Shown: positions 6,720-62,624 of the stretch, piece by piece
Position numbering within the stretch: the stretch's first letter is position 1
Layout of the letters: every line of letters starts with the position of its first letter
Assembly (NCBI RefSeq): GCF_027579695.1
Contig: NC_083583.1
Span: 18,812,257-18,876,256 of the forward strand
DNA: 64,000 nucleotides
Source of the DNA: Neoarius graeffei
Lineage: Eukaryota > Chordata > Actinopteri > Siluriformes > Ariidae
Reading direction: 5' to 3'
Position numbers and translations under genes: made by a program
The notes under the pieces: model-generated
The model's input: only the letters and a program-made list of their open reading frames with translations
What the model was told of the DNA's origin: nothing
Databases searched by the model: none

Positions 6720-7083
6720 GGGCGGCACGGTGGTGTAGTGGTTAGCGCTGTCGCCTCACAGCAAGAAGGTCCTGGGTTCGAGCCCCGGGGCCGGCGAGGG
6801 CCTTTCTGTGTGGAGTTTGCATATTCTCCCCGTGTCCGCGTGGGTTTCCTCCGGGTGCTCCGGTTTCCCCCACAGTCCAAAGACATGCAGGTTAGGTTAA
6901 CTGGTGGCTCTAAATTGACCGTAGGTGTGAATGGTTGTCTGTGTCTATGTGTCGGCCCTGTGATGACCTGGAGACTTGTCCAGGGTGTACCCCGCCTTTC
7001 GCCCGTAGTCAGCTGGGATAGGCTCCAGCTTGCCTGCGACCCTGTAGAAGGATGAAGCGGCTAGAGATGATGAGATGAGATGA
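6720..7083 (+). mobile_element. SINE-A, full length
   Basis: Reference copy of the abundant SINE. It has a tRNA-like head (GGCGGCACGGTGGTGTAGTG, then a B-box in GGGTTCGAGCCCC), a central region (CATGCAGGTTAGGTTAACTG) and a 3' tail (CCAGCTTGCCTGCGACCCTG, then GATGAGATGAGA). It is flanked by GAAACATACAT (6709-6719) and GAAACGTACAT (7084-7094), a TSD with one difference. Confidence 0.93.
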
Positions 7084-19230: not shown

Positions 19231-19254
19231 CTTTCCAAAATGGCGGACGTATCT
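19231..19254 (+). promoter_or_regulatory. Displaced upstream part of the bola3 promoter region
   Basis: CTTTCCAAAATGGCGGAC includes AAAATGGCGGAC, close to the YY1 consensus AANATGGCGGC. The 15-bp ATGGCGGACGTATCT (19240-19254) is repeated at 29889-29903, and both flank the L1. Before that insertion this motif would have lain about 150 bp upstream of the bola3 start codon. Function is inference. Confidence 0.5.
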
Positions 19255-19417
19255 TTTTTTTTTTTAATTTAGACAACACATATCAGACTAGACAAGTACG
19301 TACGTGTGTCGGGATACAATATAGACATATCACAAGGCATATGTAAGCCACAGGTATAGGCAAGAGGACAAGAAATAATAATAAAAATAAATAAATAAAT
19401 AAAAAGTCACAAGTGAG

Positions 19418-19779
19418 TTATACAATAGTTCCATACAAAAGTACAGTTCTCTGGGCTTTAGCATTATTGGAGTGTCTTATTGTTTCAATGTAGTTATTCA
19501 CATCGATTATGAAGGCTGGAAAATAAGGTTTTCCACCACTAAACTTGCATTTGTGGATGTGGTACTTGGCAAACAAAAATAACAAGTTTATAATGAAGTA
19601 TTTGCTCTCATAGTCTTTTTCATAGTCAAATATACCAAAGAATACATCTTTAAAATAAAATGAAAGATTGATAATTAGGTCAGTGTAGATAAATTCTTGG
19701 ACCTCTGACCAAAATTTCACAGTGTGAGGACAGTTCCAAAACAGATGTGAAGTGTTTTCTAGCAGTACATTCCAAAAGG
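19418..19779 (-). pseudogene. L1 ORF2 C-terminal fragment
   Basis: Reads FWSEVQEFIYTDLI, then LLFLFAKYHIHKCKFSGGKP and FIIDVNNYIETI, the typical end of an L1/Tx1-group ORF2. Truncated by the SINE at 19780. The upstream part of the reading continues on the other side of that SINE (KSFLKCYKQDIDANCSFC near 20180-20280). Confidence 0.75.
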
Positions 19780-20177
19780 GGGCGGCACGGTGGTGTAGTG
19801 GTTAGCGCTGTTGCCTCACAGCAAGAAGGTCCGGGTTCGAGTCCCGTGGCCGGCGAGGGCCTTTCTGTGCGGAGTTTGCATGTTCTCCCCGTGTCTGCAT
19901 GGGTTTCCTCCGGGTGCTCCGGTTTCCCCCACAGTCCAAAGACATGCAGGTTAGGTTAACTGGTGACTCTAAATTGACCGTACCCGTAGGTGTGAATGTG
20001 AGTGTGAATGGTTGTGTGTCTATGTGTCAGCCCTGTGATGACCTGGTGACTTGTCCAGGGTGTACCCCGCCTTTCGCCCGTAGTCAGCTGGGATAGGCTC
20101 CAGCTTGCCTGCGACCCTGTAGAAGGATAAAGCGGCTAGAGATAATGAGATGATATGAGATGATGAGATGAGATGAG
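19780..20177 (+). mobile_element. SINE-A in the L1
   Basis: Flanked by ACATTCCAAAAGG (19767-19779) and ACATTACAAAAGG (20178-20190), one mismatch. Full head and tail; the tail has extra GATGAGAT units. Confidence 0.9.
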
Positions 20178-20308
20178 ACATTACAAAAGGAGCAATTAGC
20201 ATCAATGTCTTGTTTATAACATTTAAGGAAGGATTTCACAGGGTAAAATCTATGAATTAACTTAAAGGTGACTTGTAACAAAGTACTTGAATGGTAAAGT
20301 CCATACGA

Positions 20309-20675
20309 GAAAAAAAAAGAGAAACATTTATTATTCATCACATGCACACTTCAAGCACAGTGAAATTCATCCTCTGCATTTAACCCATCTGAAGCAGTGA
20401 ACACACGCACACACCCAGAGCAGTGGGCAGCCCAGAGCACCTGGGGAGCAGTCAGGGGTTCAGTACCTTGCTCAAGGGCACCTCAGCCCAAGGCCACCCC
20501 ACATCAACCTAACTGCATGTCTTTGGGTTGTGGGGGAAACCAGGGCACCCGGAGGAAACCCACGCAGAGAACATGCAAACTCCACACAGAAAGGCCCTTG
20601 CTGGCCGCTGGGTTCGAACCCGGAACCTTCTTGCTGTGAGGCGACCGTGCTAACCACTACACCACCGTGCCGCCC
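20309..20675 (-). mobile_element. SINE-B, well preserved
   Basis: On the minus strand it has the same tRNA-like head and CACAGCAAGAAGGTTCCGGG block as SINE-A, and the same central part to CATGCAGTTAGG. It then has a different tail (complement of CATTTAACCCATCTGAAGCA and TTATTATTCATCACATGCAC). It is the clean example of the alternative-tail subfamily. Confidence 0.85.
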
Positions 20676-21010
20676 GTACCTTCATGAAGGTATGTATGAG
20701 AAGGTATGTTCTCTACATACCATACAATGGTATTTAGAGAACATACTTTCCTCCAATGTATGTTCTCTACAATACCATTCCAGAAATGGACAACATATGG
20801 GAGAGAAACAACATCACTTTGAAATACAGCTCTGATTTTTCTATTGATGTTGTGATGTTTTGAGGATAAGCACAGATTGCCTATAACCGTGTCAGATAAA
20901 GAGGTCAAGAGAGCAAAGTGTGATGGCAAGTTGCCCTTTAACAGCATAATGATCCCTGCAGGAATTGCATCGAAAACAATCGCATATTCCTTAACAGTAA
21001 TAGGTATACC
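20676..21010 (-). pseudogene. L1 reverse-transcriptase fragment with local duplications
   Basis: Minus-strand reading PITVKEYAIVFDAIPAGI, then LTSLSDTVIGNLCLSSKHHN and VVSLPYVVHFW, is typical of L1/Tx1-group reverse transcriptase. GTATGTTCTCTAC-type units near 20700-20775 are repeated about three times. The hAT at 21011 interrupts it. Confidence 0.7.
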
Positions 21011-21425
21011 CAGAGCCGGCCCGTGGAATAGGCAATATAGGCAAATTCTAAGGGCGCTGCGTCCACCCAGGGGCGCAGAAACGGGGGGAGAAAAATTATG
21101 ACTTCCACTATTCTGAAAACGAGTCAGCATTATAATGTCTTAGCCTAATTTAATTGTACAGCAAAGCATGTAGTCAGGGCGCGATTTGTCAAAAAAAGTG
21201 GGGTGGGGTGGTGGTTGTTAATCATGAAACAATAAGCGCTCAACAGTGGTTCGCCCTGTCTATAGTGTGTCTTCGGGCGCGCAAGTGCGCATCCGCGGCT
21301 ATTCTCTGTTTTGGCCAATTGCCTAGAGCGCAAAGTGTGCCCAGGGGCGCCAAGGGCGACCAAAACCCCACCAAAAAGGAGGGATGGAGTTATTGAATGT
21401 TACCAAGTGCATCAGTGGTGTACAG

Positions 21426-21650
21426 TGTTTTCAACCACTGTGCTGCTGAACTCTAGTACCGCGGAACACTAGTGTGCCGTGAGAGATCACCAAGTGTACT
21501 GTGGAAAATTATAGAATGACTGTATATTGTAAATATTGGCAACAGCGTTTTAGTTTCAGTCAACATTTTCTACTGGTGATGTGCCTTGAGATTTTTTCTT
21601 TGAAAAAAGTGCGCCCTGGCTCAAAAAGGTTGAAAAACAAGTGTAGCCTA
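21426..21650. mobile_element. Possible small hAT-type MITE
   Basis: CAGTGTTTTCAACCACTGTGC at the left, and TGGCTCAAAAAGGTTGAAAAA at the right, whose complement TTTTTCAACCTTTTTGAGCC partly matches. GTGTGCCGTGAGAGATC in the middle is the kind of body seen in Charlie-group MITEs. No clean target duplication. Confidence 0.45.
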
Positions 21651-21674
21651 CGCAGTAGTGGTCGGTGATTTCCT

Positions 21675-23454
21675 CTCGTCTCGTCTCGTCTTCTTCCGCT
21701 TATCCGGGACCGGGTCGTGGAGGCAGCAGTCTAAGCATGGAAGCCCAAATGTCCCTTTCCCCAGACACCTCGGCCAGCTCCTCGGGAAGAACACCGAGGC
21801 GTTCCCAGGCCAGCCGAGAGACATAGTCCTTCCAGCGTGTCCTGGGTCTTCCCCGGGGCCTCCTCCCGGGGGGACATGCCTGGAACACCTCCCCAGGGAG
21901 GCATCCAGGAGGCATCCGAAAAAGATGCCCGAGCCACCTCAGCTGATTCCTCTCGATGTGGAGGAGCAGCGGCTCTACTCCGAGCTCCTCCCGAGTGACT
22001 GTGCTTCTCACCCTATCTCTAAGGGAGCGCCCAGCCACCCTGCGAAGGAAACTCATTTCAGCCGCTTGTATCCGCGATCTTGTTCTTTCTGTCACTACCC
22101 AAAGCTCATGACCATAGGTGAGAGTTGGAACGTAGATCGACCGGTAAATTGAGAGCTTCGCCTTTTGGCTCAGCTCCTTCTTCACCACGACGGACCGGTA
22201 AAGTGACCGCATCACTGCGGAGGCTGCACCGATCCGCCTGTCGATCTCACGCTCCATCCTTCCCTCACTCATGAACAAGAGCCCGAGATACTTAAACTCC
22301 TCCACTTGAGGCAGGACTTCTCCACCAACCTGGAGAGGGCAAGCCACCCTTTTCCGGTCGAGAACCATGGCCTCGGACTTGGAGGTGCTGATTCTCATCC
22401 CAGCCGCTTCACACTTGACTGCAAACCGCCCCAGTGCATGCTGAAGGTCCTGGTTTGAAGAAGCCAACAGGACAACATCATCCGCAAAAAGCAGAGATGA
22501 AATCCTGTGGTTCCCAAACAGGATTCCTTCCGGCCCCTGGCTGCGCCTAGAAATTCTGTCCATAAAAATTATGAACAGAACCGGTGACAAAGGGCAGCCC
22601 TGCCGGAGTCCAACATGCACTGGGAACAGGTCTGACTTACTGCCGGCAATGCGAACCAGACTCCTGCTCCATTCGTACAGGGACCAGACAGCCCTTAGCA
22701 AAGAGCCCCGAACCCCATACTCCCGAAGCACCCCCCACAGAATACCACGGGGGACATGGTCGAATGCCTTCTCCAGATCCACAAAGCACATGTGGACTGG
22801 TTGGGCAAACTCCCATGAACCCTCGAGCACCCTATGAAGGGTATAGAGCTGGTCCAGTGTTCCGCGACCAGGACGAAAACCGCATTGTTCCTCCTGGATC
22901 CGAGGTTCGACTATTGGTCGAATTCTCCTCTCCAGTACCCTGGAGTAAACTTTCCCTGGGAGGCTGAGAAGTGTGATTCCCCTATAATTGGAGCACACTC
23001 TCCGGTCCCCTTTCTTAAAAAGAGGGACCACCACCCCAGTCTGCCACTCCAGAGGCACTGTCCCCGACCGCCACGTGATGTTGCAGAGGCGTGTCAACCA
23101 AGACAGCCCCACATCATCCAGAGACTTGAGATACTCAGGGCGGATCTCATCCATCCCCGGTGCCTTGCCACCGAGGAGCTTGCAAACGACCTCAGTGACT
23201 TCGGCTTGGGTAATGGACGAGTCCACCTCTGAGTCATCAGCCTCAGTCTCCTCAGTGGAAGACATGACGGTGGGATTGAGGAGATCCTCAAAGTATTCCT
23301 TCCACCGCCCGACAATGTCCCCAGTCGAGGTCAACAGCTCCCCACCCGCACCGTAAACAGTGTTGGCAGAGTACTGCTTCCCCCTCATGAGGCGCCGGAC
23401 GGTTTGCCAGAATTTCTTCGAGGCCGATCGATAGTCCTTCTCCATGGCGTCCAT
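21675..23454 (-). mobile_element. 5'-truncated LINE with a long open reverse-transcriptase frame
   Basis: Perfect 11-bp duplication GGTGATTTCCT at 21664-21674 and 23455-23465. The minus-strand frame is open from about 23454 to 21700 (about 580 residues). Blocks in order: YFEDLLNP, GKAPGMDEIRPEYLK, GVVVPLFKKGDRRVCSNYRG, CGFRPGRGTLDQLYTL, MCFVDLEKAFDHVPR, RQGCPLSPVLF, LLFADDVVLLAS (catalytic), KYLGLLF, the C-terminal RWLGHLFRMP and GRRPRGRPRTRWKDYV, ending LLPPRPGPG. The intact frame implies a young insertion. The endonuclease part is missing. The clade is not decided (RTE/I-like by its C-terminal motif). Confidence 0.88.
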
Positions 23455-25000
23455 GGTGATTTCCTTATGCCTACTAAAAATGCACAATGATAGGTTATAA
23501 GGGGGGCAGGGGGAGCGGTGTTCATCGGGGAATGAGAATGGCTATCCACTGCAAAAAGTAGCCCAGACTACAAGTGCTTAAATGAAGAAATCCAAACTCT
23601 CGGGTGCGCAAGGGCGCAAACGAAGGCTACAGGAAGAAACAAATAGAGCCAAGTATAGAGGTAAGCAGAGTGCGAATTACCCCACCATAATTGGGGGGTA
23701 CCATCATGGTCCACTATTATATCAATCGCCCCCCCGGTCCTGTCCCGTCTCGTCTATGGAAGTCGGTGTCAGTAACTCAACACAATAACTCTGAACAATA
23801 ATTTTTAATGTCATTAAGAAGCATGACAAACCATACAGCACTACCACAGAAGAAAAACAGCAGTACAACCTGATAACCTTCTTTGTCAGAACAAACTGGG
23901 TATCAACACTACAAATGAGTCACATACAGTATATACACACATGCAGAACAGTCCTGCTGAACGTCTTGCTCTCTTTCGTCCTGCTGTGCCTCTCCTGTCT
24001 GCTGGGAACCCATTTTCTTTATTCACATGAACAGTGTATAAAACCTAACTGCACCTACACTTGTACTGTAATTGTCTGTAGATCTTAGTGCTAATATTTA
24101 CTACTTACTCTTTTAGCACCAAAAAAATGCCTGATGTCTGGCCCTTTTCTTTTCCTCATGTTTGGCCTACTGTCTCTGTGAATAAACTCAAACAGGGTAC
24201 TCAGATGAAACTATGACTATCTTAAAAATAATACAAAAGGAATGTAAGTAAAAACAATAGAAAACATCCATGTACTAGGCTATTTTGCCTAGGCTAGCCT
24301 ACTACCTGGCTCTTTTTATGTTGCCCCCAGTCCCCAGAGGTTCTGATTGTAATTTTACATAGGCTTAGCTCGGCCTACATCAGAAATTCTTGTGCCTTAT
24401 CACACACACAGGATGGGCCTATGTGCCAAATGAATTTCAGAAGGGCACAATTTATTCATGATAAAATGAGAATGGAAACATATGGAGTTCTTCTCCTTTG
24501 AAATGAGAATCGTTTCTATACCACACTGTAATAAGCTTGATTTAAATAGAGACTTAGCTTATCTTGCTAACTAACGTTGGTAACTAACGTTAATGTCTGT
24601 CCACTGTAGCCTTCTGGCCTCAGTGGGTAAGTAATTCAATGTATAAAGATGTGACATGAGCTGAAAGAACAAATCACTTTAATAAATGAAACTTGTAAAA
24701 TAACACATTTTCAACAGGCTAAAAGTTGGTTAGCAACTAACATTACCAATGCACGTCTTCTGCTGCAAACCACAGACTGTATAAATTGCTGCAAACCCAT
24801 GGACTGTATCTGATGAATCAACTGAATACGGTGTGGAGTAGAAGCTGTTGCTTCTAGCGCAGGGTTTTTCAAAGTGTGGGGCGTGTCTCCCCTAGGGGGC
24901 GCCAGAGTTCTTCGGGGGGGCAACGTGAGGAAAAATAAACCAGAATAAGTTACTATTGCGGACATTTAGCGAACTTCAGCTAGCCTTTGCCAGAGACAAA

Positions 25001-25213
25001 ATGGATCGATTTTTAGTACCTAAAGCTACAGTGAGTGAGGAGACAGAGTCTGGGCCAAGCAAAAAAAGAAGGAAGTATGACCACGATTATTTAAAGTTTG
25101 GATTTTCATGGACTGGATCTGAAGATGCTCCACTGCCACAGTGTGTTGTCTGCCAAGAGGTGCTAGTTAATGATGCTATGAGATGTTTAAAATGTGTAAA
25201 ACAAGATGTTTAA
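25001..25213 (+). pseudogene. hAT transposase N-terminal BED-type finger (copy 1)
   Basis: ATG at 25001 gives MDRFLVPKATVSEETESG, a basic SKKRRKYDHDYLKFGFSW block and then PQCVVCQEVLVNDAM. The CVVC pair is the first half of a BED zinc finger in ZBED/Charlie-type hAT proteins. The finger is cut before its histidines and is followed by an ATGTTTAAAATGTGTAAAA-type tandem repeat (25178-25380). Confidence 0.65.
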
Positions 25214-25380
25214 AAAAAGCACAGATGTTTAAAATGTGTAAAAAAAAAGAGGTTTTCAAAAAGCACAGATGTTTAAAATGTGTAAAAAAAGATGTTTTAA
25301 TAAAGCTCATATGTTTTAAATATGTAAAAAAAAAGATGCTTTCAAAAAGCACAGATGTTTAAAATGTGTAAAAGAAAAAA
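25178..25380. repeat. Tandem AGATGTTTAAAATGTGTAAA units
   Basis: Several imperfect units of about 35-65 bp follow the transposase fragment. The same array is present in inverse orientation at 28055-28205 in copy 2, so it belongs to the element. Confidence 0.7.
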
Positions 25381-25450
25381 ATAAAAATGTGTACAACACC
25401 CATTTTTTAAAATACGAATGGAACATTAAGTATAGCAACAACAAAAATTG

Positions 25451-25809
25451 GCGGCACGGTGGTGTAGTGGTTAGCGCTGTCGCCTCACAGCAAGAAGGTC
25501 CTGGGTTCAAGCCCCGGGGCCGGCGAGGGCCTTTCTGTGTGTTCTGTGCATGTTCTCCCCGTGTCCGCATGGGTTTCCTCCGGGTGCTCCGGTTTCCCCC
25601 ACAGTCCAAAGACATGCGGGTTAGGTTAACTGGTGACTCTAAATTGACCGTAGGTGTGAATGGTTGTCTGTGTCTATGTGTCAGCCCTGTGATGACCTGG
25701 CGACTTGTCCAGGGTGTACCCCGCCTTTCGCCCGTAGTCAGCTGGGATAGGCTCCAGCTTGCCTGCGACCCTGTAGAAGGATAAAGCGGCTAGAGATAAT
25801 GAGATGAGA
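25451..25809 (+). mobile_element. SINE-A in hAT copy 1
   Basis: Flanked by CAACAAAAATTG at 25439-25450 and 25810-25821. Absent from hAT copy 2 at the matching place, so it inserted after the two copies separated. Confidence 0.93.
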
Positions 25810-26029
25810 CAACAAAAATTGTAAAGGGGGGGGCTGACTCTCCCACACTTTGAAAACCCCTGTACTAGCGCATTCTAGCGCTGCCGTGACTAAAAATGGT
25901 GCGGTCCACAATAGGGGTGTCTGTCTGAAATCAATTTACATTAAAATGTTCCTACAATAAGAATGCCGAATGGGAGTTGGTTTGAATTATATATTCCTTT
26001 TCACAATATCAGAAAAAATATCGGAACCC

Positions 26030-26060
<31 letters not shown>

Positions 26061-27289
26061 AAAAAAAAAAAACTTATATTTTTGTCTCTTTGGGGGGGTA
26101 CTGGGTCTTCATTGGGGGGTATAGTACCCCCCAGTACCCCCCGTAATTCGAACTATGGAAGTCTGATCTAATCTCTCCTATCAACCATTATAGTGGCAAA
26201 TTAATATTTTAGACGCCTGAATCAATGTCTGCCTAGCTAACTAGATGCAAACAGCAGTAGACTTCAATAACAAAGTACCCATAATTGCACTTTTGTTTGA
26301 AAATACAGCCCATTGATGTCCTAACAGGGTGCTTAAGTTTGCACAATTTAGAATTGTAGAATTTTTTATTCATTTAATTTGTTAATTCTTCAGAGATGAC
26401 TTAACTTTTAATAGCAAAAAGGGAACTAAAAATAATTTCTTGTTTATTGTCCATGCACTACACTTTGAACAGGGTGCGGAAGAGTTTTTGCCCATTATAT
26501 GGAGATATGTATTGAATTTGTGTGGTCATTTTACTTTGTGACACTTTATGTTAATAATGATAACAATAATAACAATAATGAAAAAGATAAAAATGACTTC
26601 TTGTTTATTGTCCATGCACCATACATTGTTTAATAGTAATAGAATAGAGTGATTAGATTAAAGTGTTATTTAGATGTTATTAGAGGTTTTTTTTCTTGGG
26701 GGGGGGCAAAACTCACTCTCGCCTAGGGCAGCCAAAGACCTAGAGCTGGCCCTGGGTATACCATACGTTCTTAAAAAATCAGAGTATTCATATTGTCTAC
26801 CATTGGAATCAAAAAGCTACACTACCGTTCAAAAGTTTGGGGTCACCCAGACAATTTTGTGTTTTCCATGAAAAGTCACATTTTTATTTACCACCATAAG
26901 TTGTAAAATGAATAGAAAATATAGTCAAGACATTTTTCTGGCCATTTTGAGCATTTAATCGACCCCACAAATGTGATGCTCCAGAAACTCAATCTGCTCA
27001 AAGGAAGGTGAGTTTTATAGCTTCTCTAAAGAGCTCAACTGTTTTCAGCTGTGCTAACATGATTGTACAAGGGTTTTCTAATCATCCATTAGCCTTCTGA
27101 GGCAATGAGCAAACACATTGTACCATTAGAACACTGGAGTGAGAGTTGCTGGAAATGGGCCTCTATACACCTATGGAGATATTGCACCAAAAACCAGACA
27201 TTTGCAGCTAGAATAGTCATTTACCACATTAGCAATGTATAGAGTGCATTTCTGATTAGTTTAAAGTGATCTTCATTGAAAAGAACAGT

Positions 27290-27553
27290 AAAGCAAAGGG
27301 GAGTCCCATATACGATTCGTACATTGGGGGAGTGCCTGTTAGAGAGCGCACTTGTCCTGGGCCATCGGCATAGTGAGGTAGGGTGGCCAGTTCCTTTCCT
27401 CGCCGCCTTTAACTTCCCCAGTGTTTCCACCAGGTCCCCATTCACTGCTGGGTGGACAGGGAGCGAGCCCCAGATCCCCGTCAAGCCAAGGCTCGAACCA
27501 GGGACCGTTCGCTTAGCGGTCAAGCGCTCTAACCACTTGGCCACCTGCGCTCC
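27290..27553 (-). mobile_element. tRNA-derived SINE, second family (SINE-C)
   Basis: Perfect 12-bp duplications GAAAAGAACAGT at 27278-27289 and 27554-27565. On the minus strand it begins GGAGCGCAGGTGGCCAAGTG with TTAGAGCGCTTGACCGC and a GGTTCGAGCC B-box, like a leucine- or serine-type tRNA. A unique body of about 190 bp follows. It has no similarity to SINE-A beyond the promoter boxes. Confidence 0.85.
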
Positions 27554-27609
27554 GAAAAGAACAGTGCTTTTCTTTCAAAAATAAGGACATTTCAAAGTGA
27601 CCCCAAACT

Positions 27610-29727
27610 CATAGTTCGAATTACGGGGGGTACTGGGGGGTACTATACCCCCCAATGAAGACCCAGTACCCCCCAAAGAGACAAAAATATAAGTTGTTTT
27701 TTTTTTTTTTTTGGGGGGGGGGGGGGGTCCGATATTTTTTCTGATATTGTGAAAAGGAATATACCTATAATTCAAACCAACTCCCATTCGGCATTCTTAT
27801 TGTAGGAACATTTTAATGTAAATTGATTTCAGACAGACACCCCTATTGTGGACCGTACCATTTTTAGTCACCGCAGCGCTAGAACGCGCTAGTACAGGGG
27901 TTTTCAAAGTGTGGGAGAGTCAGCCCCCCCCGCGTAGAGAGCAAATAAACAACAGCGCCCCCCCCCCCCCCCACAATTTTTGTTGTTGCTATACTTAATG
28001 TTCCATTCGTATTTTAAAAAATGGGTGTTGTACACATTTTTATTTTTTTCTTTTACACATTTTAAACATCTGTGCTTTTTGAAAGCATCTTTTTTTTTTT
28101 TTACATATTTAAAACATATGAGCTTTATTAAAACATCTTTTTTTTTTTACACATTTTAAACATCTGTGCTTTTTTTAAACATCTTGTTTTACACATTTTA
28201 AACATCTCATAGCATCGTTAGCTAGCACCTCTTGGCAGACAACACACTGTGGCAGTGGAGCATCTTCAGATCCAGTCCATGAAAATCCAAACTTTAAATA
28301 ATCATGGTCATACTTCCTTCTTTTTTTGCTTGGCCCAGACTCTGTCTCCTCACTCACTGTAGCTTTAGGTACTAAAAATCGATCCATTTTGTCTCTGGCA
28401 AAGGCTAGCTGAAGTTCGCTAAATGTCCGCAATAGTAACTTATTCTGGTTTATTTTTCCTCACGTTGCGCCCCCCCCCCCGAAGAACTCTGGCGCCCCCT
28501 AGGGGAGACGTGCCCCACACTTTGAAAAGCCCTGCGCTAGAAGCAACAGCTTCTACTCCACACCGTATTCAGTTGATTCATCAGATACAGTCCATGGGTT
28601 TGCAGCAATTTATACAGTCTGTGGTTTGCAGCAGAAGACGTGCATTGGTAATGTTAGTTGCTAACCAACTTTTAGCCTGTTGAAAATGTGTTATTTTACA
28701 AGTTTCATTTATTAAAGTGATTTGTTCTTTCAGCTCATGTCACATCTTTATACATTGAATTACTTACCCACTGAGGCCAGAAGGCTACAGTGGACGGACA
28801 TTAACGTTAGTTACCAACGTTAGTTAGCAAGATAAGCTAAGTCTCTATTTAAATCAAGCTTATTACAGTGTGGTATAGAAACGATTCTCATTTCAAAGGA
28901 GAAGAACTCCATATGTTTCCATTCTCATTTTATCATGAATAAATTGTGCCCTTCTGAAATTCATTTGGCACATAGGCCCATCCTGTGTGTGTGATTAGGC
29001 ACAAGAAGTTCTGATGTAGGCCGAGCTAAGCCTATGTAAAATTACAATCAGAACCTCTGGGGACTGGGGGCAACATAAAAAGAGCCAGGTAGTAGGCTAG
29101 CCTAGGCAAAATAGCCTAGTACATGGATGTTTTCTATTGTTTTTACTTACATTCCTTTTGTATTATTTTTAAGATAGTCATAGTTTCATCTGAGTACCCT
29201 GTTTGAGTTTATTCACAGAGACAGTAGGCCAAACATGAGGAAAAGAAAAGGGCCAGACATCAGGCATTTTTTTGGTGCTAAAAGAGTAAGTAGTAAATAT
29301 TAGCACTAAGATCTACAGACAATTACAGTACAAGTGTAGGTGCAGTTAGGTTTTATACACTGTTCATGTGAATAAAGAAAATGGGTTCCCAGCAGACAGG
29401 AGAGGCACAGCAGGACGAAAGAGAGCAAGACGTTCAGCAGGACTGTTCTGCATGTGTGTATATACTGTATGTGACTCATTTGTAGTGTTGATACCCAGTT
29501 TGTTCTGACAAAGAAGGTTATCAGGTTGTACTGCTGTTTTTCTTCTGTGGTAGTGCTGTATGGTTTGTCTTGCTTCTTAATGACATTAAAAATTATTGTT
29601 CAGAGTTATTGTGTTGAGTTACTGACACCGACTTCCATAGACGAGACGGGACAGGACCGGGGGGCGATTGATATAATAGTGGACCATGATGGTACCCCCC
29701 AGTTATGGTGGGGTAATTCGCACTCTG
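27610..29727 (-). mobile_element. hAT element (family H), copy 2
   Basis: Perfect 8-bp duplication CCCAAACT at 27602-27609 and 29728-29735, which proves an 8-bp (hAT-type) target. Ends CATAGTTCGAATTACGG and, in complement, CAGAGTGCGAATTACCCC. It lies in opposite orientation to copy 1, so the pair forms a long inverted repeat with a 1.45-kb spacer. Confidence 0.9.
28175..28387 (-). pseudogene. hAT transposase N-terminal BED-type finger (copy 2)
   Basis: Same 70-residue reading as at 25001-25213, from ATG at 28387. One residue differs (EVLAND versus EVLVND). Truncated at the same place, so truncation preceded amplification: both copies descend from a non-autonomous parent. Confidence 0.65.
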
Positions 29728-29912
29728 CCCAAACTTTTGAACGGTAGTGTAGCTAACTAGGGTGATGTTGTTTCTGAACCAGTTATCAAAGAATAACCTT
29801 GTTATTCCATATGTAATATCTATGCGGTGAGAAATTGTGTTTATATAGGAGAGACCAACCCAAGAGCATCTGTTTGTGAAAATTTGACATGGCGGACGTA
29901 TCTACTGCCTCT

Positions 29913-29917
29913 TTTTT

Positions 29918-29948
<31 letters not shown>

Positions 29949-30338
29949 TTGTCAGATAGCATTGCATACATTTTGTATAAAAAACATATATAACAGTCTG
30001 CCAGGGGTTATGGCATGGAAATAATAGTAAAACAACAACAACAACAACAACAACAACAAATAAACAGAAACAGGAAAATAAATAAATTGACATGAATGCA
30101 TTGTACAGCACAAAAAGGGAATAAGACTTCACAGCTTTCTTATTAAGAGAGCAAGAGATGGACGCTATATAATGATTTACATAAATGGAGAATTCAATAA
30201 AGGTTGGCTTTACATTTTGAAATTTTGACTTGTGTATATAATGTTTGGTTAAAATGATAATGAGGTTAATTAAGTAAAACTCAGAAGTGGCATTCCTGTC
30301 TTGAGTAACAAAACCAAAGAGTACATTTTCCCCACTTC
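29913..30338 (-). mobile_element. Second L1-type insertion upstream of bola3
   Basis: Perfect 17-bp duplication ACGTATCTACTGCCTCT at 29896-29912 and 30339-30355. A T-rich TTTA microsatellite at the left is the A-rich 3' tail on the minus strand. About 426 bp of 3' untranslated L1-like sequence, including a CAA microsatellite (30030-30060). Its target overlaps that of the larger L1 by eight bases. Confidence 0.85.
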
Positions 30339-30376
30339 ACGTATCTACTGCCTCTAACAGAACCATAGCGACAGAG

Positions 30377-30384
30377 TGACGTCA
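30377..30384 (+). promoter_or_regulatory. CRE-like TGACGTCA element before bola3
   Basis: A perfect palindromic TGACGTCA, the CREB/ATF consensus, lies 120 bp before the proposed bola3 start codon. Activity is inferred from motif and position only. Confidence 0.5.
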
Positions 30385-30503
30385 TATTTGTGCGACGACA
30401 GTCGTCCGGGTATGACTTTTGCTATCAAGTTTCTTGGCGTTCTGTGAAGATATTTATTTTGTTTTGTTTAATTATATCAGTGGGGACAGCGGGCAGGTTC
30501 GGA

Positions 30504-30747
30504 ATGTCTCTTCACAGGCTACTAAGATGCAAAGTAAATATCTGGAGTGACATTTATTTATGGCTGTTTGCTAGTTTGCTAGCTAGGAAGCTACAACTGT
30601 CTATGGAAGATTACTGTTAAAGGGTCGCACGTGCTTATTTATGTTTGTGCACAAAAGCCTTGTACAGATTAAATCACACATAAAAATCCTGATACTAATT
30701 TTGTGTGTTTTAGTGAGAATACACCTTCAAAATACCACCGTAAGCGC

Positions 30748-30778
<31 letters not shown>

Positions 30779-33700
30779 ACTCCATAATGGGAACTATGTT
30801 GCTGTTTTGGATATTTCAGGAGCTACTTAGCTACTTTGCATAGCAGTCAACTTGCTATAATATAAAATAATAAATTGTATATTATCAGAATCATGTTTAT
30901 TGGCCAAGTTTGTTGACACACACAAGGAATTTGGTTCTAGCAGTTTGTCTCCAGAAAATACATAATATACAGTACCTACATTATATACAATATGTCTAAG
31001 ATATCTGTATTAGGAGTTTCTGTGTTTATCAGTACAGTTGAATCGTTTAACCCTTGTCATCGGCACACACAGACTCTTAAGCTGTCATCGTGCAGACAGA
31101 TACAGAGATCTTTTTCGACCAGCACTGAAGGAGAGGTCCGCATTACCAAAATACTGAAAGAGAAGTTTCCCCAAGCCTCATCTCTCAAAGTTGTGGATAT
31201 ATCTGGTAAGCATTTGCATTATTAACATCTCATCTCATTATCTCTAGCCGCTTTATCCTGTTCTACAGGGTCGCAGGCAAGCTGGAGCCTATCCCAGCTG
31301 ACTACGGGCGAAAGGCGGGGTACACCCTGGACAAGTCGCCAGGTCATTACAGGGCCGACACATAGACACAGACAACCATTCTGACACACATTCACACTTA
31401 TGGTCAATTTAGAGCCACCAGTTAACCTAACCTGCATGTCTTTGGACTGTGGGGGAAACCGGAACACCTGGAGGAAACCCACGCGGACACGGGGAGAACA
31501 TGCAAACTCCACACAGAGAGGCCCTCGCCGGCCCCGGGGCTCGAACCCGGACCTTCTTGCTGTGAGGCGACAGCGCTAACCACTACACCACCGTGCCGCC
31601 CATCCTTATAAATATAAGGATAAATCCTTATAAGGATTTATAAATAAATATATATGCCATGTATGATTCACCATAATCGGGTGGTCCGTGCCGTCCCATT
31701 ATTAACATCTATGATCTGCAATATTTTGTAATAATTTGTCTGCTTGTACCTTTGGTTGATTCCAGGTGGCTGTGGAGCGATGTATGAAATCCATATCGAG
31801 TCTGATGAATTTAGAGGGAAAAGAATAGTGCAGCAGCACCAGGTAGTGAATCAGGTATGTTCCAAATACAGATCTGAAATAGAAGTCTGTTTAAAATCAG
31901 GGGCACAAAATGTGTGTAAGCATGTCTAGTGCTGCATACAGTGTTGTCAACTTTTTTCAGGGGAAAGTAGCTAAAATATGCTCCAGAACACGTCACAAAT
32001 TTGCATATTATTTGCTTCGTCATGATTATTTGCATATTAAATGTGTTGCACGAAGAAAGACAGACAGTCTTTTTCAGGATATTTTTTTTGGAAGACACTA
32101 ATTTGAACAGAGTAGTTTTATTAGAATACAATACTTTATCCCGCACGCCATCAGACTGTACAACTCCTCTCTGGGGGGGAGGAGGGGTAACAGGAGGACC
32201 GAGGATGGGAAGGAGCAGTAGCCTAGCCTGATAAAAAGCAATACTGGGCAATGTGCAATATAATGTGCATTACCTCTCCTGCTAGATTTTTTTTTCATAT
32301 TTTATTTTTTATGTTTGTATATCTCATCTCATTATCTCTAGCCGCTTTATCCTTCTACAGGGTCGCAGGCAAGCTGGAGCCTATCCCAGCTGACTACGGG
32401 CGAAAGGCGGGGTACACCCTGGACAAGTCGCCAGGTCATCACAGGGCTGACACATAGACACAGACAACCATTCACACTCACATTCACACCTACGGTCAAT
32501 TTAGAGTCACCAGTTAACCTAACCTGCATGTCTTTGGACTGTGGGGGAAACCGGAGCACCCGGAGGAAACCCACGCGGACACGGGGAGAACATGCAAACT
32601 CCACACAGAAAGGCCCTCGCCGGCCCCGGGGCTCGAACCCAGGACCTTCTTGCTGTGAGGCGACAGCGCTAACCACTACACCACCGTGCCGCCCATGTTT
32701 GTATATGTTAATACTTTTTTAATTTATCTAGAAGTTTTTTCTATTTTCTGTTTATTTGGTAATGATGCTGCTGGAATTTTAATTTCCCTGAGGGAACCCT
32801 CCCAAAGGGATCAATAAAATTTTATCTAATCTAATAGAATAGCACTTTATTGGAAAAGAATCGTGTCTTTTCGAGTCTCATAGACTTCCATCATAATAAA
32901 ATAGTTTTATTCGAATAGAATATGTTTTTATCAGATCAGAATATAGAATGTAAGTTTGGGCAAAACAGAATAGTGAATAGAACCAAACAAGCATTGATTG
33001 ACTGAAGATACAAGAAGGCCATGAAAATTTCTGGCGGATGGAAGGACAGGAGGTTACATGGTCATTGTTCATCTGTGTGCAGTGTTTGGCTCCCTGAAAT
33101 TTCATTAAAAGTCGCTAAATTGGCAACACTGATGTTCTGTTACTGTTGCTTTGGTCTGAGTGTGTAAGACATCCATGCCTCATTCATTTGAATATAACAC
33201 ATGGAAATAAAAAGAGCTGGGAAATAAAATCCCCTGAAATAAATAATGCCGCTTTTCCACTACAAACGCGGCTGAGCCGTGCCGTGCCGAGTCGAGCTGA
33301 GTCGGGCTGAGCGGGGCTGTTGGAGTTGCATTTCGACTACAACCGCGCTGAACCGTGCTGGCTGGAAGTGGGTGGACACATTGGGTGGAGTTAGCGAAAG
33401 TGGGTGGACGTCATGTGATGTCGTTAAGCAGCGCAAACAGTGACATCAGTGACAGTGGCGGAACAAGTCAGAGCCGGGCCGGGGGCGGGGCAAATGACCG
33501 GGCCCTTTATTAAAGCTTATCATAACATCATTTTAGGCTACAAAATGTCCGCAACTGCGGTGTTTACCAATTTCAACACTACCGGGTGCAACTATGTTAT
33601 TTAGTACATCAAGTCCTTCAAACGAACATGTAACTCAGAAACAAAAAACATTAGGATACTGTACATGGCTCATAATAAAACATCAATAGCCTATACTGCG

Positions 33701-36478
33701 CACATTATTTGAAGGGCATACGAATGAGCGCTCAGAGTGGTGACAGGAAGAGTCAGAAATAAAAGGAGGGCGGTGCAAACCTCACTGAATGCACTGTGTT
33801 TACCAATTTCAACACTACGGGGTGCAACTATGTTATTTTGTACATTAAGTCCTTCAAACGAGCATGTAACTCAGAAACAAAAAAAAACATTAGGCGACAT
33901 ACTGTACATGGCTCATAATAAAACATCAATAGCCTACTGCGCGCATTATTTGAAGGGCATACGACGAGCCTTGCGCTCCGCGAACTCGTCCACGATGCTC
34001 TGTATTATATGTCACTGATTCAGTGAGCTTTTAAGCGGTAGTCTCACGACCCGAATAGTAAACAATAAACATGGAGGACATGGAGTCGTTAGTGTTGCTG
34101 GTCTTGGTGCTGTGGCTTGACAACGCCAACAGATACTGGCAAGAGCGTATAGATGAGGCGAGGCGCATAAGGCTTCAGAAATTCTCGTAATTCGTAATTC
34201 TTCTCCTTCCGGGTTTGCGGTGTTTACAGATCCCAGCACGCTTGCGGGGCGTGTGTGGGCATGTGAGGACACTCCTCCTCACCAATCAGTGCACAGGGGA
34301 GTGTCTGCTCACGCCCCCAACCTCAGTCAGCACGGTTTGGCTCGCTTCAGCCCCACTCCAAAACGGTGCGAGTTTTAGGGGCTAAGCAGGGCTGAAACGA
34401 GCTGAGTCGTGCTGGTTTTTGGTAGTCGAAACGCGAGCCGTGTCGGGCTGAAGCGAGCTGAAGTGAGCTGAAAAAGGGTAGTGGAAAAGGGCCATAAATG
34501 TTTTGAATTATGAAATAAATGTTCCCTGCAATAAATAAAGGTAATCCTTTGAAAAATATCATTTTTAAATAATTAAAAAAACCCTTTATTTACTGAACTA
34601 TATCGACTCATTTATGTATGTATTTACATTTATTTATATATTTCTCATTTACAACCCTGATTCCAAAAAAGTTGGGACAAAGTACAAATTGTAAATAAAA
34701 ACAGAATGCAATGATGTGGAAGTTTCAAAATTCCATATTTTATTCAGAATAGAACATAGATGACATATCAAATGTTTAAACTGAGAAAATGTATCATTTA
34801 AAGAGAAAAATTAGGTGATTTTTTAAATTTCATGACAACAACACATCTCAAAAAAGTTGGGACAAGGCCATGTTTACCACTGTGAGACATCCCCTTTTCT
34901 CTTTACAACAGTCTGTAAACGTCTGGGGACTGAGGAGACAAGTTGCTCAAGTTTAGGGATAGGAATGTTAACCCATTCTTGTCTAATGTAGGATTCTAGT
35001 TGCTCAACTGTCTTAGGTCTTTTTTGTCGTATCTTCCGTTTTATGATGCGCCAAATGTTTTCTATGGCTGAAAGATCTGGACTGTAGGCTGGCCAGTTCA
35101 GTACCCGGACCCTTCTTCTACGCAGCCATGATGCTGTAATTGACGCAGTATGTGGTTTAGCATTGTCATGTTGGAAAATGTAAGGCCTTCCCTGAAAGAG
35201 ATGTCGTCTGGATGGGAGCATATGTTGCTCTAGAACCTGGATATACCTTTCAGCATTGATGGTGTCTTTCCAGATGTGTAAGCTGCCCATGCCACACGCA
35301 CTAATGCAACCCCATACCATCAGAGATGCAGGCTTCTGAACTGAGCGCTGATAACAACTTGGGTCGTCCTTCTCCTCTTTAGTCCAAATGACACGGCGTC
35401 CCTGATTTCCATAAAGAACTTCAAATTTTGATTCGTCTGACCACAGAACAGTTTTCCACTTTGCCACAGTCCATTTTAAATGAGCCTTGGCCCAGAGAAG
35501 ACGTCTGCGCTTCTGGATCATGTTTAGATACGGCTTCTTCTTTGAACTATAGAGTTTTAGCTGGCAACGGCGGATGGCACGGTGAATTGTGTTCACAGAT
35601 AATGTTCTCTGGAAATATTCCTGAGCCTATTTTGTGATTTCCAATACAGAAGCATGCCTGTATGTGATGCAGTGCCGTCTAAGGGCCCGAAGATCACGGG
35701 CACCCAGTATGGTTTTGCGGCCTTGACCCTTACGCACAGAGATTCTTCCAGATCCTCTGAATCTTTTGATGATATTATGCACTGTAGATGATATGTTCAA
35801 ACTCTTTGCAATTTTACACTGTCGAACTCCTTTCTGATATTGCTCCACTATTTGTCGGCGCAGAATTAGGGGGATTGGTGATCCTCTTCCCATCTTTACT
35901 TCTGAGAGCCGCTGCCACTCCAAGATGCTCTTTTTATACCCAGTCATGTTAATGACCTATTGCCAGTTGACCTAATGAGTTGCAATTTGGTCCTCCAGCT
36001 GTTCCTTTTTTGTACCTTTAACTTTTCCAGCCTCTTATTGCCCCTGTCCCAACTTTTTTGAGATGTGTTGCTGTCATGAAATTTCAAATGAGCCAATATT
36101 TGGCATGAAATTTCAAAATGTCTCACTTTCGACATTTGATATGTTGTCTATGTTCTATTGTGAATACAATATCAGTTTTTGAGATTTGTAAATTTTTGCA
36201 TTCCGTTTTTATTTACAATTTGTACTTTGTCCCAACTTTTTTGGAATCGGGGTTGTATTTCATGGCCATATTTGTTTATTTCATAGGCATATTTATTTTT
36301 CTTTATTTTATATTGACTAAAATTGCATTCTGTATTATTTTTGCCCTGAACTAATAATGTCATATAAAGTTGTTAGTTATTCACTGTTGAAATGTGTTAT
36401 TTACTGTAACAGGCACTCAAAGAAGAGATTAAAGGAATGCACGGACTGCGGATATTCACAGCTGTTCCCAAAAAGTAG
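30504..36478 (+). CDS. bola3: BolA family member 3, mitochondrial Fe-S cluster factor
   Basis: BOLA3 acts in the mitochondrial matrix with GLRX5 and NFU1 to place 4Fe-4S clusters in lipoate synthase and complexes I and II. Exons: ATG at 30504 ([10 protein letters not shown], to 30533, donor GTAAAT), exon 2 ending 31205, exon 3 31766-31854 and exon 4 36413-36478 (TAG). Protein blocks are [56 protein letters not shown] and [20 protein letters not shown], matching the BolA fold, with the cluster-ligand Cys in GGCGAMYE and the invariant His in MHGLRIF. The start of exon 2 is uncertain: the usual-looking AG at 31037 does not fit the phase of exon 1, while an AG at 31000 does. Intron 3 (4.6 kb) is mostly transposons. 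Confidence 0.9.
31231..31696 (-). mobile_element. SINE-A with a 95-bp 5' extension
   Basis: Perfect 14-bp duplication CATTATTAACATCT at 31217-31230 and 31697-31710. The SINE head ends near 31602, and about 95 bp of extra sequence lies between it and the right duplication. That extra part is rich in ATCCTTATAA palindromes and ends near GGTGGTCCGTGCCGTCC, resembling a diverged head. Lies in bola3 intron 2. Confidence 0.85.
32323..32694 (-). mobile_element. SINE-A in bola3 intron 3
   Basis: Flanked by ATGTTTGTATAT at 32311-32322 and 32695-32706. Full length and close to consensus. Confidence 0.93.
32707..33243. other. bola3 intron 3 sequence
   Basis: AT-rich intronic sequence. CCCTGAGGGAACCCTCCCAA followed by GATCAATAAAA near 32788-32822 looks like the 3' end of an old LINE. 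No exon. Confidence 0.4.
33247..34494. mobile_element. PIF/Harbinger-like non-autonomous element
   Basis: Ends TGCCGCTTTTCCACTAC and, in complement, TGGCCCTTTTCCACTAC, flanked by the 3-bp duplication TAA (33244-33246, 34495-34497), as in PIF/Harbinger. Both ends continue into GC-rich GAGCTGAGTCG-type repeats. Interior carries a direct duplication (33558-33727 and 33797-33965). No transposase found. Confidence 0.72.
33558..33965. repeat. Direct duplication inside the PIF-like element
   Basis: About 170 bp beginning GTGTTTACCAATTTCAACAC and ending TTGAAGGGCATACGA occurs twice, 239 bp apart, with only a few differences. Confidence 0.8.
34652..36255 (-). mobile_element. Tc1-like transposon, almost intact, in bola3 intron 3
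   Basis: TIRs CAACCCTGATTCCAAAAAAG / complement CAACCCCGATTCCAAAAAAG. TA on both sides (34650-34651, 36256-36257). Length 1604 bp. Its end lies 157 bp before the last bola3 exon. Sub-terminal sequence (GTTGGGACAAAGTACAAATT) is also repeated in inverse at the other end. Confidence 0.93.
34874..35947 (-). pseudogene. Tc1 transposase with a single premature stop
   Basis: Minus strand from ATG at 35947 (a later ATG gives [19 protein letters not shown]). The parts are a helix-turn-helix region ([20 protein letters not shown]), an RKGQGRKT linker, WSDESKF (first Asp), [27 protein letters not shown] (second Asp) and [11 protein letters not shown] (Glu, 34 residues later, so DD34E), ending GDVSQW at 34874. 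The frame is continuous apart from one in-frame TAG at about 35627-35629 (EITK-stop-AQEY). All three catalytic residues are present. About 357 residues, the normal family length. Confidence 0.9.
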
Positions 36479-52420: not shown

Positions 52421-52562
52421 ATAATATCCTCTATGGACCCTTTTCACGTGACGTCACGACAAACGCGGCCGCCATTTTGGACGTGTACTACCAGTAGTTT
52501 ACCACAGCCAACATTGAGGAACGGCAGCAAAGAAAGTTTTTACTTTCAGCAAGACTTCCATC

Positions 52563-52721
52563 ATGCCACTATATTGTTGTGCACCTGGATGTAGTAACCG
52601 TCAACAAACAAGGCAAGGTTTATCATTTTATCGGATCCCGACGGAGAAGATGGATAGCGGCCATTAACAGATTGGCAGCCCTCGGCATACCAACGCTTGT
52701 GTAGTGACCACTTTGTTGGAG
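52563..52721 (+). pseudogene. THAP-domain first exon
   Basis: ATG at 52563 gives MPLYCCAPGCSNRQQTRQGL then SFYRIP, with the first two THAP cysteines (C-x4-C). After a shift the reading continues RRRWIAAINR, and CSDHFVGG supplies the Cys and His of the zinc site. A good donor GGTAAGA follows at 52721-52727. At least two frameshifts within the exon make it non-functional. Confidence 0.75.
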
Positions 52722-53026
52722 GTAAGACGAATAAAATTAGCCAGAAAAGGCATTACATTGCTGTTAACATTCTGTGGCGGCGAGTGTGTAACCAAATAGG
52801 CTAAAATAACCCATTGTAACCTCTTTGTTCTTCTGTAGTAGCTATTGTTGACTAGCTAATGTCAACAAGTAGCTGGTATGTTACTGTAGCAATGTTTACG
52901 TTCAGTCATTTGGATGACTGTTAAAACCTTTCAGTCTCAAGTTTTTCCTTTACTGTATTTACTAGTTTACTGTAATTATGATCCGGCAGCTATTTACACC
53001 GGATCCAGTATAAATAGCTGCCGGAG

Positions 53027-53263
53027 CCAACGTCCGAGGTTCCGGAGCGCGCTCCGGCTTGCTCTCCCTCAAATTAAGCAGCGCGCGCCGGCTTGCTCCC
53101 GGAGTGCTCCGGCCGAGGTTCCGGAGCACACTCCGGCCGAGGTTGCCCTCAAATTAAGCAGCACGCTCCGGCTTGCTCCGGAGCAAGCCGGAGCGCGCTC
53201 CGTAACCTCGGCCGGAACACTCCTGGAGCAAGCCGGAGCGCGCTCCGGAACCTCGGACGTTGG
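53027..53263. repeat. GC-rich inverted repeat of CCGGAGCGCGCTCCGG units
   Basis: Outer arms CCAACGTCCGAGGTTCCGGA (53027) and the complement ending TCCGAGG-type CCTCGGACGTTGG (53263). Between them GGAGCGCGCTCC, GCTTGCTCC and CCGAGGTTCC recur in both orientations. Composition is very unlike the AT-rich surroundings. Confidence 0.85.
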
Positions 53264-53271
53264 TGTGTATG

Positions 53272-53545
53272 TGTATGGCGATGGGTTTTTAACGACATAG
53301 GTATACAGATCATGTGGGCCGAAGTCAGGTAAAGACGAGGGCTTCGTGTACTTCCGTACGTCAGTGAACAATCCTGGTGGAAGCAGGTAAACGTCGTTCT
53401 CTAAGCCTGCTAACCTCAATTTTTGCAAATACCTCTCCCTCTGCTCGCCCTGTAAATGCCCTACGTCGCTGGATAGTGAAGGTGTTTTCTGCATCTCGCT
53501 CCTTTTTCTTTTATGTTTTTCGTTTGTCGCCTTCCTCGCATTCAA
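53272..53545 (-). pseudogene. Second protein of the THAP element, N-terminal part
   Basis: Minus-strand frame from ATG at 53545: MNARKATNEKHKRKRSEMQK, RERYLQKLRLAGLENDVYLL, FTDVRKYTKPSSLPDFGPHD and LYTYVVKNPSPYTYTPTS. It then runs into the GC-rich repeat, where it ceases to look like protein. The RYLQKL-L-GL--D-Y-LP ... DLYTYLV pattern resembles the start of YqaJ-nuclease-associated proteins of fish transposons. The nuclease domain is absent. Assignment is tentative. Confidence 0.45.
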
Positions 53546-53625
53546 ACTGATTCGAGCCGAAGTCCACTACATGTCCAAAATGGCGGTCGCGTTTACGAAG
53601 GTCACGTGACTGAAAAGGGTCTATA

Positions 53626-58973: not shown

Positions 58974-59797
58974 ATGGCGAAGGAAGGAACGGAGACGGCG
59001 GAGGAAACCGAGCAGATGATCGAGAAAAACCGAGCTAAAGAGCCGGAGAGCGCCGTTAATGCGCCAGATTCAAAGGAAATGCGCGCTGTGCTGCTTTCAG
59101 GTTTTGGGGGTTTAAACAAACTCAAAGTGACCAAGAAAGCCATGCCTGAACCCCAAGAAGGAGAAGTCAAAATTCGGGTTAAAGCATGGTACAGCATGTT
59201 TAATCATCTTCTTGTTTGTGGTTTTAAAATGGGTTTGGAGATGTGACAGGGCTGTGCGCTTTAAAGCAACATGTTGCAGTAAAACTACCATAATGAACAG
59301 CTGATTAATGATGAATGACATGAGAGCAGAAGAAATGGCATGGCATGGCATGGTTTCTAAATAGTTCTAATAATCCTGAATATTTTCTTTTACAGTCCAG
59401 AGGTGTTTGAAATATGCTGATTCATATGAACCATTTCAGTTTTCATAGGCTCCCTTATCCCTTATCCCTTATAAATATCATTAGTCTAGATAAAATGGGC
59501 TATATTTACATATAAATGAGTAGATATCCAGAGTGTGCCAAGGATTTCAGGTTAAAGTTATTGCATTGTAGCTGTTAAACACTGTCATCAGCACCATTTT
59601 GTCCACCCAAATGATATCAAAAAGACTCATTATGATTTTTACAGCGGCTTGAATTTCCTTGATCTCATGGTACGTCAAGGAAATATTGATAATCCTCCCA
59701 AAACCCCTCTCGTTCCTGGATTTGAATGTTCTGGAATAGTGGAAGCTGTGGGAGAAAATACAAAAGGCTTCGAGGTATGTGACATTGCAGACTTTCA

Positions 59798-59848
<51 letters not shown>

Positions 59849-60444
59849 GAGTGATTCCACGCTTATGGGTACTGAAATGCGGACATGAACTTATTCACCT
59901 AAAACCATTTCTTTTTTTACCATCAGGTCACAAAACATGTAATCTTTAATGAATGATGTGTTAAAAGATAACTTTAATTTTCTGAGATGTAATAAAAACC
60001 TATTTATATGCCAAAGTCAAGCCTATGAGTTCCAAAATTATGTCTGTTCCATTACTTCTGTTACGATTGTCCATCTCGCGTCTGTTACAAATTAATTACA
60101 ATCTAGCTATATACCGTGTTAATCTTCTTGAAAGAATGTGTATGTTTATTCTACTACACGTTTATTAATTGTATTTGCTAAAACATCACCTTCCTATGTT
60201 TCAAAAAGTAATTCTACATTGTTAAAATTGAGAATATATATGTCCACAACACTTCTGTTACGTTCTGACTTTGGCATATAAATATGTTTTTATTACATCT
60301 CAGAAAATTAAAGTTATCTTTTAACATATCATTCATTAAAGATTACATGTTTTGTGACCTGATGGTAAAAAAAAGAAATGGTTTTAGGTGAATTTTTAAA
60401 AATAAGTTCATGTCCCCATTTCAGTACCCATAAGCGTGGAATCA

Positions 60445-60512
<68 letters not shown>

Positions 60513-62320: not shown

Positions 62321-62624
62321 GTAAGCCTCTCAGCCTGGGGTTATGGTTATAAGGACAGAGAAACAGCACGAAAATGGGGGGGGGGGAACACTTTAATACT
62401 AGGATTTTCTTATTTTAATATTTTAGGCTTATACCATAATTCTTGTCGTGGTTATGGGAACATAGCGTAGCATGAAAAACTTTGAAATAAGAGTGCCCTT
62501 ATTGGAGCGTTTTGCAGTTCTGCATTATGTAAGCAATAAAAAAAAATGGCCTGAAATGTTTTATTCCTATTATAGCACAGCGATTTGGGAACAATTAAAA
62601 ATTCCTGTCCATCGAAAAATGACA
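62321..62624 (+). other. vat1l intron 3, 5' part
   Basis: Starts with donor GTAAGC at 62321. A G run is at 62377-62386. No exon recognised. Confidence 0.6.

Follow-up and report, generated by a model that had tools for sequence, protein, structure and literature searches.

The DNA upstream of bola3 was analysed in a stretch of 64,000 nucleotides from Neoarius graeffei (contig NC_083583.1; hereafter the window), in which two long interspersed element 1 (LINE-1, L1) insertions, L1-a and L1-b, occupy overlapping target sites. The arrangement is best explained by two independent target-primed reverse transcription (TPRT) insertions of L1 in DNA dense in transposable elements, the coincidence of position being filtered by tolerance, a reading to which we assign a probability of roughly 0.85. 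The locus illustrates cleanly how two L1 events can use overlapping targets, with an ancestral site that can be read directly.

Target-site duplications and L1 elements

As described in the initial annotation of this stretch, two exact and maximal repeats flank the insertions: the 15-bp target-site duplication (TSD) ATGGCGGACGTATCT (TSD1) brackets 19255–29888 and the 17-bp ACGTATCTACTGCCTCT (TSD2) brackets 29913–30338. Each TSD meets a proper L1 end, with an A-rich tail on one side and the end of the element body on the other. None of 100 dinucleotide shuffles contained two matches to the TSD1 or TSD2 pattern, even at 2 or 3 mismatches, and in the whole assembly of the same species (2.34 Gb) the TSD1 15-mer occurs twice, both times at this locus, with no occurrence of its reversed control. 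After filtering, the list of isolated exact 14–26-bp repeats in the window comprises ten pairs; of these, only TSD1 and TSD2 overlap each other, and only they have a first copy followed by a T-run (13 and 12 of 15 bases).

When 19254|29904–29912|30356 are joined, a contiguous site results whose end lies 148 bp ahead of the bola3 ATG, so that the proposed rebuilding of the original site holds. The empty site as reconstructed reads ...CCAAAATGGCGGACGTATCT+ACTGCCTCT+AACAG..., and the contiguous junction predicted for an orthologue free of the insertions is CCAAAATGGCGGACGTATCTACTGCCTCTAACAGAACC; an exact search with the joined site gave no matches in the viral collection and none in the prokaryote collection. 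The nick sites, TATCT/ACTGC and CCTCT/AACAG, are separated by 9 bp on the same strand, and each falls between TCT and A; measured on the empty site, the bola3 ATG lies 157 bp downstream of the first and 148 bp downstream of the second. Two TPRT events, both antisense to bola3, would have nicked this strand at these positions, each duplicating its target and leaving a 5′-truncated copy, and L1-a would then have received at least four direct insertions, which were themselves later invaded. L1-b may have entered the right copy of TSD1, or L1-a the left copy of TSD2; the sequence fits both orders because both produce identical letters. The DNA upstream of bola3 is displaced by more than 10 kb, as had been noted.

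The 10.6-kb insert, initially annotated as an L1 nest, does represent an L1 insertion, but the idea that it is wholly L1 was ruled out, the L1 pieces summing to 1,101 bp: it consists of a 5′-truncated L1 fragment of about 1.1 kb and about 9.5 kb of later insertions. For the comparison of the pieces, nine sister copies (L007–L015) were taken from the same genome. In L007, L008, L010 and L011 the pieces adjoin without intervening DNA, and L009 agrees with this order except for one insert of its own; L012–L014 are broken by their own inserts and L015 is short. The L1 is likewise contiguous in sister copies across the position of the hAT-like element. Five of the six sisters aligning at the other end (L036, L037, L039, L040 and L041) reach the last base of L1-a (29889, with one ambiguous A) and continue as L1 past it, the sixth (L038) being interrupted earlier; L1-a is therefore 5′ truncated where TSD1 begins. 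L1-a differs from six sister copies by 3.7–5.2% in DNA, with private substitutions in 18 of 918 columns (about 2%), and at this divergence the chance of identical 15-bp TSD copies is 0.55, i.e. about half the time.

The sisters identify L1-a as an L1. The reverse transcriptase (RT) of L040 matches LINE-1 ORF2 (second open reading frame) chains with E = 1.7e-29, the best chain, 'RNA-directed DNA polymerase', giving 8.2e-30 and R2 giving 1.6e-6. The Pfam families above the cut-off in the sisters are Exo_endo_phos (E = 2.5e-7 in L040), RVT_1 and zf-RVT; in ORF1 of L040, Transposase_22 (L1 RBD-like) stays below it (E = 0.0024, 18.6 bits, cut-off 22.4), as does the better-scoring Syntaxin (E = 0.00025). 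The copy in the window, being truncated, is without the RT core and the endonuclease, and a PDB search with two L1-a peptides gave no L1 match. Compared with known LINE-1 TPRT insertions, L1-a and L1-b share the A-rich tail, the 5′ truncation (probable in L1-b) and a TSD of 15–17 bp, and the L1-a sisters share the endonuclease and an RT of the LINE-1 ORF2 type; nothing essential is different, and the fish family has few members, 2.34 Gb yielding about 11 copies (a lower bound). A search with the 3′-end pattern of the family, allowing two mismatches, gave 14 places (reversed control, 0 and 5), ten of which are known copies, including that of the window, and four of which lie at C2:41776136 and in a cluster on C27. 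The L039 copy lies between the two units of a direct repeat, diverged and about 50 bp long (2937–2990 and 7026–7080 in reverse-complement coordinates); the repeat is offset by 29 bp from the poly-A and is not an ordinary TSD.

The ORF2 C-terminus of L1-b is 38–40% identical to that of L1-a over 73 amino acids (E = 1e-15), and because this identity is only 38% L1-b is assigned to an L1 lineage separate from L1-a. Against the DNA sequences compared here, L1-b matched only itself. It probably represents an independent full insertion event.

bola3 and the YY1-like motif

The identification of bola3, which we take to be a gene of mitochondrial function, was confirmed in its exons, its ATG at 30504 and its single-copy status: the four predicted exons give an open frame of 105 amino acids with a BolA domain (PF01722, E = 8.4e-11), and a protein search of the same genome gave three exon matches, all at this locus. 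The insertions appear to have done bola3 no harm. The cyclic AMP response element (CRE)-like site TGACGTCA, one of four in the window, is retained as previously reported, in native DNA that, at 148 bp plus the 17-bp TSD, hints at how short the native upstream sequence needed by bola3 may be. Under a tolerance filter, the surviving insertions would be those that did not disrupt this proximal 148 bp and the CRE-like site within it.

A duplicated YY1-like motif had also been proposed. Motifs were scored over the 12 positions of CAARATGGCGGC, presumably the YY1-type consensus, with ATGG required and a Markov control per 64 kb. The duplication holds for the core ATGGCGG (positions 5–11), which is present in both copies, and the distal motif CAAAATGGCGGA, starting at 19236 and 11.3 kb from the bola3 ATG, matches at 11/12; but the near copy (at 29885, 615 bp from the bola3 ATG) begins partway through the motif, since the target was cut at that point, and with its core ATGGCGGA it scores 8/12, which is at chance level (56 such sites in the window versus a control mean of 64). 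Both copies have A at position 12, where the consensus has C. Sites of at least 11/12 number three in the window versus a control mean of 0.33, two of the three being transposon ends at 52.4–53.6 kb, and the Markov control gave no 12/12 sites per 64 kb. On the empty site, the ATG of the motif lies 172 bp from that of bola3 and would open a 15-codon upstream ORF, MADVSTASNRTIATE*, which is out of frame with bola3 and whose stop overlaps the CRE-like site.

In a reported mutagenesis study, positions 5–11 (5–12 in its discussion) of the TISU (translation initiator of short 5′ untranslated regions) element were needed for transcription and YY1 binding, whereas positions 1–4 were dispensable (PMC2518114). 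The near copy might possibly keep residual activity, since positions 1–4 are dispensable and 5–11 are kept, although position 12 differs in both copies. The bola3 motif resembles TISU in the core of both copies and in the distal score, and is unlike it in lying off the start codon, in the near-copy score and in the A at position 12.

At 52436–53625 (borders by eye) lies a DNA transposon whose inverted ends carry 12/12 and 11/12 YY1-type sites, with TGACGTCA in one end and CACGTGAC-like words in both, so that the ends look promoter-like; the start of its ORF resembles, we presume, THAP. Copying of the YY1/CRE pair of bola3 from this transposon was considered and rejected, as the similarity extends over only 16 bp (15/16, E = 1.1).

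Probable chance landing and alternative explanations

Four insertions lie directly in L1-a, over its 1,101 bp (the SINE-like, second repeat, hAT-like and MITE-like elements of Table 1), a density at which a further insertion no more than 9 bp away in either direction has a chance of about 6%. Coincidence at roughly this rate per site suffices for the double landing, and the letters fit ordinary chance insertions upstream of bola3; the double insertion alone does not show a new mechanism. Several points weigh against independent chance insertions. The 6% figure is rough and comes from one small local sample, and the empty site is a reconstruction from this one sequence. L1-b is considered 5′ truncated on account of its length and probably an L1 by its ORF2 C-terminal similarity, and the L1-a and L1-b peptides themselves gave no Pfam families. 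True site preference is, moreover, known to occur, as human NF1 illustrates, where three sites are reported to have been used twice each by L1 endonuclease insertions (PMC3219598). The bola3 locus shares with those NF1 sites independent insertions at or beside one site; here, in contrast, the TSDs overlap, the nicks are 9 bp apart, two L1 lineages are involved, and both insertions are kept in one germline sequence, upstream of the gene.

Target preference had been suggested; a preference of L1s for open promoter DNA or for TCT/A, so that the same site was used twice, is an unlikely explanation. It would account for two same-strand nicks that both separate TCT from A and lie 9 bp from each other, and the repeated use of single NF1 sites is a precedent; these nick sites, however, agree by eye with the L1 nick consensus TTTT/AA in no more than 3 and 4 of the 6 positions. 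Inspection by eye shows promoter-like 3′ flanks in some sisters: L008 has a YY1-like site, L010 a CRE-like site, L012 CCAAT and L014 an ETS-like site. The ORFs after the 3′ flanks of L007 and L012 presumably resemble hAT transposases. Over the 200 bp that directly follow the L1 3′ end, with repeats included, the CpG observed/expected (o/e) ratio is at least 0.8 in four of 11 insertions (ten sisters and that of the window), L036 falling just under, versus 16.4% of 1,290 overlapping background windows, repeats likewise included; this promoter bias is not significant for the 11 insertions (P = 0.09 in the binomial test and P = 0.07 for the mean o/e). Moreover, the motif-bearing flanks of L008 and L012 have low or middling ratios (0.21 and 0.51), L038 and L042 sit in AT-rich DNA, and the family, with about 11 copies and four places added by the pattern search, gives little more statistical power. 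With a local chance of the size given above and a non-significant bias, a special target preference was not upheld. The promoter-like flanks are a weak lead, and preferential insertion of this small fish L1 lineage in promoter-like DNA (YY1-, CRE-, CCAAT- and ETS-type near the 3′ ends) seems very improbable; if true it would explain the repeat landing upstream of bola3, and if proved in this genome it would bear on site choice by LINEs.

Nor do we put much weight on a selected regulatory change, in which the insertions were kept for moving the YY1/TISU-type motif and its upstream ATG away from bola3; the odds seem strongly against it. The out-of-frame upstream ORF on the empty site, with its stop in the CRE-like site, is in its favour, as is the reported finding that TISU upstream of an ORF competes with the downstream AUG and inhibits translation (PMC2518114). 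However, with two of the three sites of at least 11/12 being transposon ends, a single native site is close to what chance would give, and had the old start site been located below the motif, the mRNA would never have contained it. An assembly artefact, or one complex rearrangement mimicking two TSD pairs, is suggested by the single assembly used as the source, but every repeat abuts the proper L1 end and L1-a and L1-b are of different lineages, and this explanation is hardly credible. Two independent L1 insertions remain the preferred reading.

Nested insertions and neighbouring sequences

The coordinates are collected in Table 1. The type names short interspersed element (SINE), hAT and miniature inverted-repeat transposable element (MITE) are putative, being drawn from ends and TSDs and not from a repeat library; the repeat at 19780–20177 is one that we take to be of the tRNA-SINE type. 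Inner inserts of the nested elements carry exact TSDs of 13 and 12 bp, and the MITE-like element has no TSD of 6 bp or more.

Table 1. Features of the L1 insertions and of bola3 (window positions)
Feature	Position	Strand	Remarks
TSD1, left copy	19240–19254		exact 15-bp repeat
TSD1, right copy	29889–29903		exact repeat; holds near YY1-like core, 8/12
TSD2, left copy	29896–29912		exact 17-bp repeat; 8-bp overlap with TSD1
TSD2, right copy	30339–30355		exact 17-bp repeat
L1-a with nested insertions	19255–29888	-	poly-A tail left, 5′ truncated right
L1-a pieces	19255–19779, 20191–20306, 20742–21010, 26763–26818, 29754–29888	-	total 1,101 bp
tRNA-SINE-like repeat in L1-a	19780–20177		TSD 12/13 bp alike
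Second repeat insertion in L1-a	20307–20741		contains repeat 20345–20675; no TSD found
hAT-like DNA transposon in L1-a	21011–26754		8-bp TSD GGTATACC, end sequence
Non-long-terminal-repeat (non-LTR) RT ORF, inside hAT-like element	21703–23541	-	RVT_1, E = 9e-38
Element X copy 1, inside hAT-like element	23669–26157	+	no clear TSD
SINE-like insert in X copy 1	25451–25808		TSD ACAACAAAAATTG
MITE-like element in L1-a	26819–29752		ends CACTACCGTTCAAAAGTTTGGGG; borders within about 3 bp
Element X copy 2, inside MITE-like element	27610–29728	-	TSD CCCAAACT; inverted versus copy 1
L1-b	29913–30338	-	426 bp, 3′ end of L1, (TTTA)n A-rich tail at left
Native DNA between TSD2 and bola3 ATG	30356–30503	+	148 bp; CRE-like site at 30377–30384
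bola3	30504–36478	+	exons 30504–30533, 31073–31205, 31766–31854, 36413–36478 (predicted splice sites)

The two copies of element X are inverted, with main arms 96% identical and about 1.5 kb apart, and form a 6-kb inverted repeat upstream of bola3, which could fold or recombine. A tRNA-SINE-like repeat, beginning GGCGGCACGGTGGTGTAGTGG, is present in well over ten copies within the window. As a neighbour, mob1a was not supported, a human MOB1A query giving a best E of 0.53 in the window. ORF pieces are present at 59556–62467, which we presume to resemble a VAT1-like oxidoreductase.

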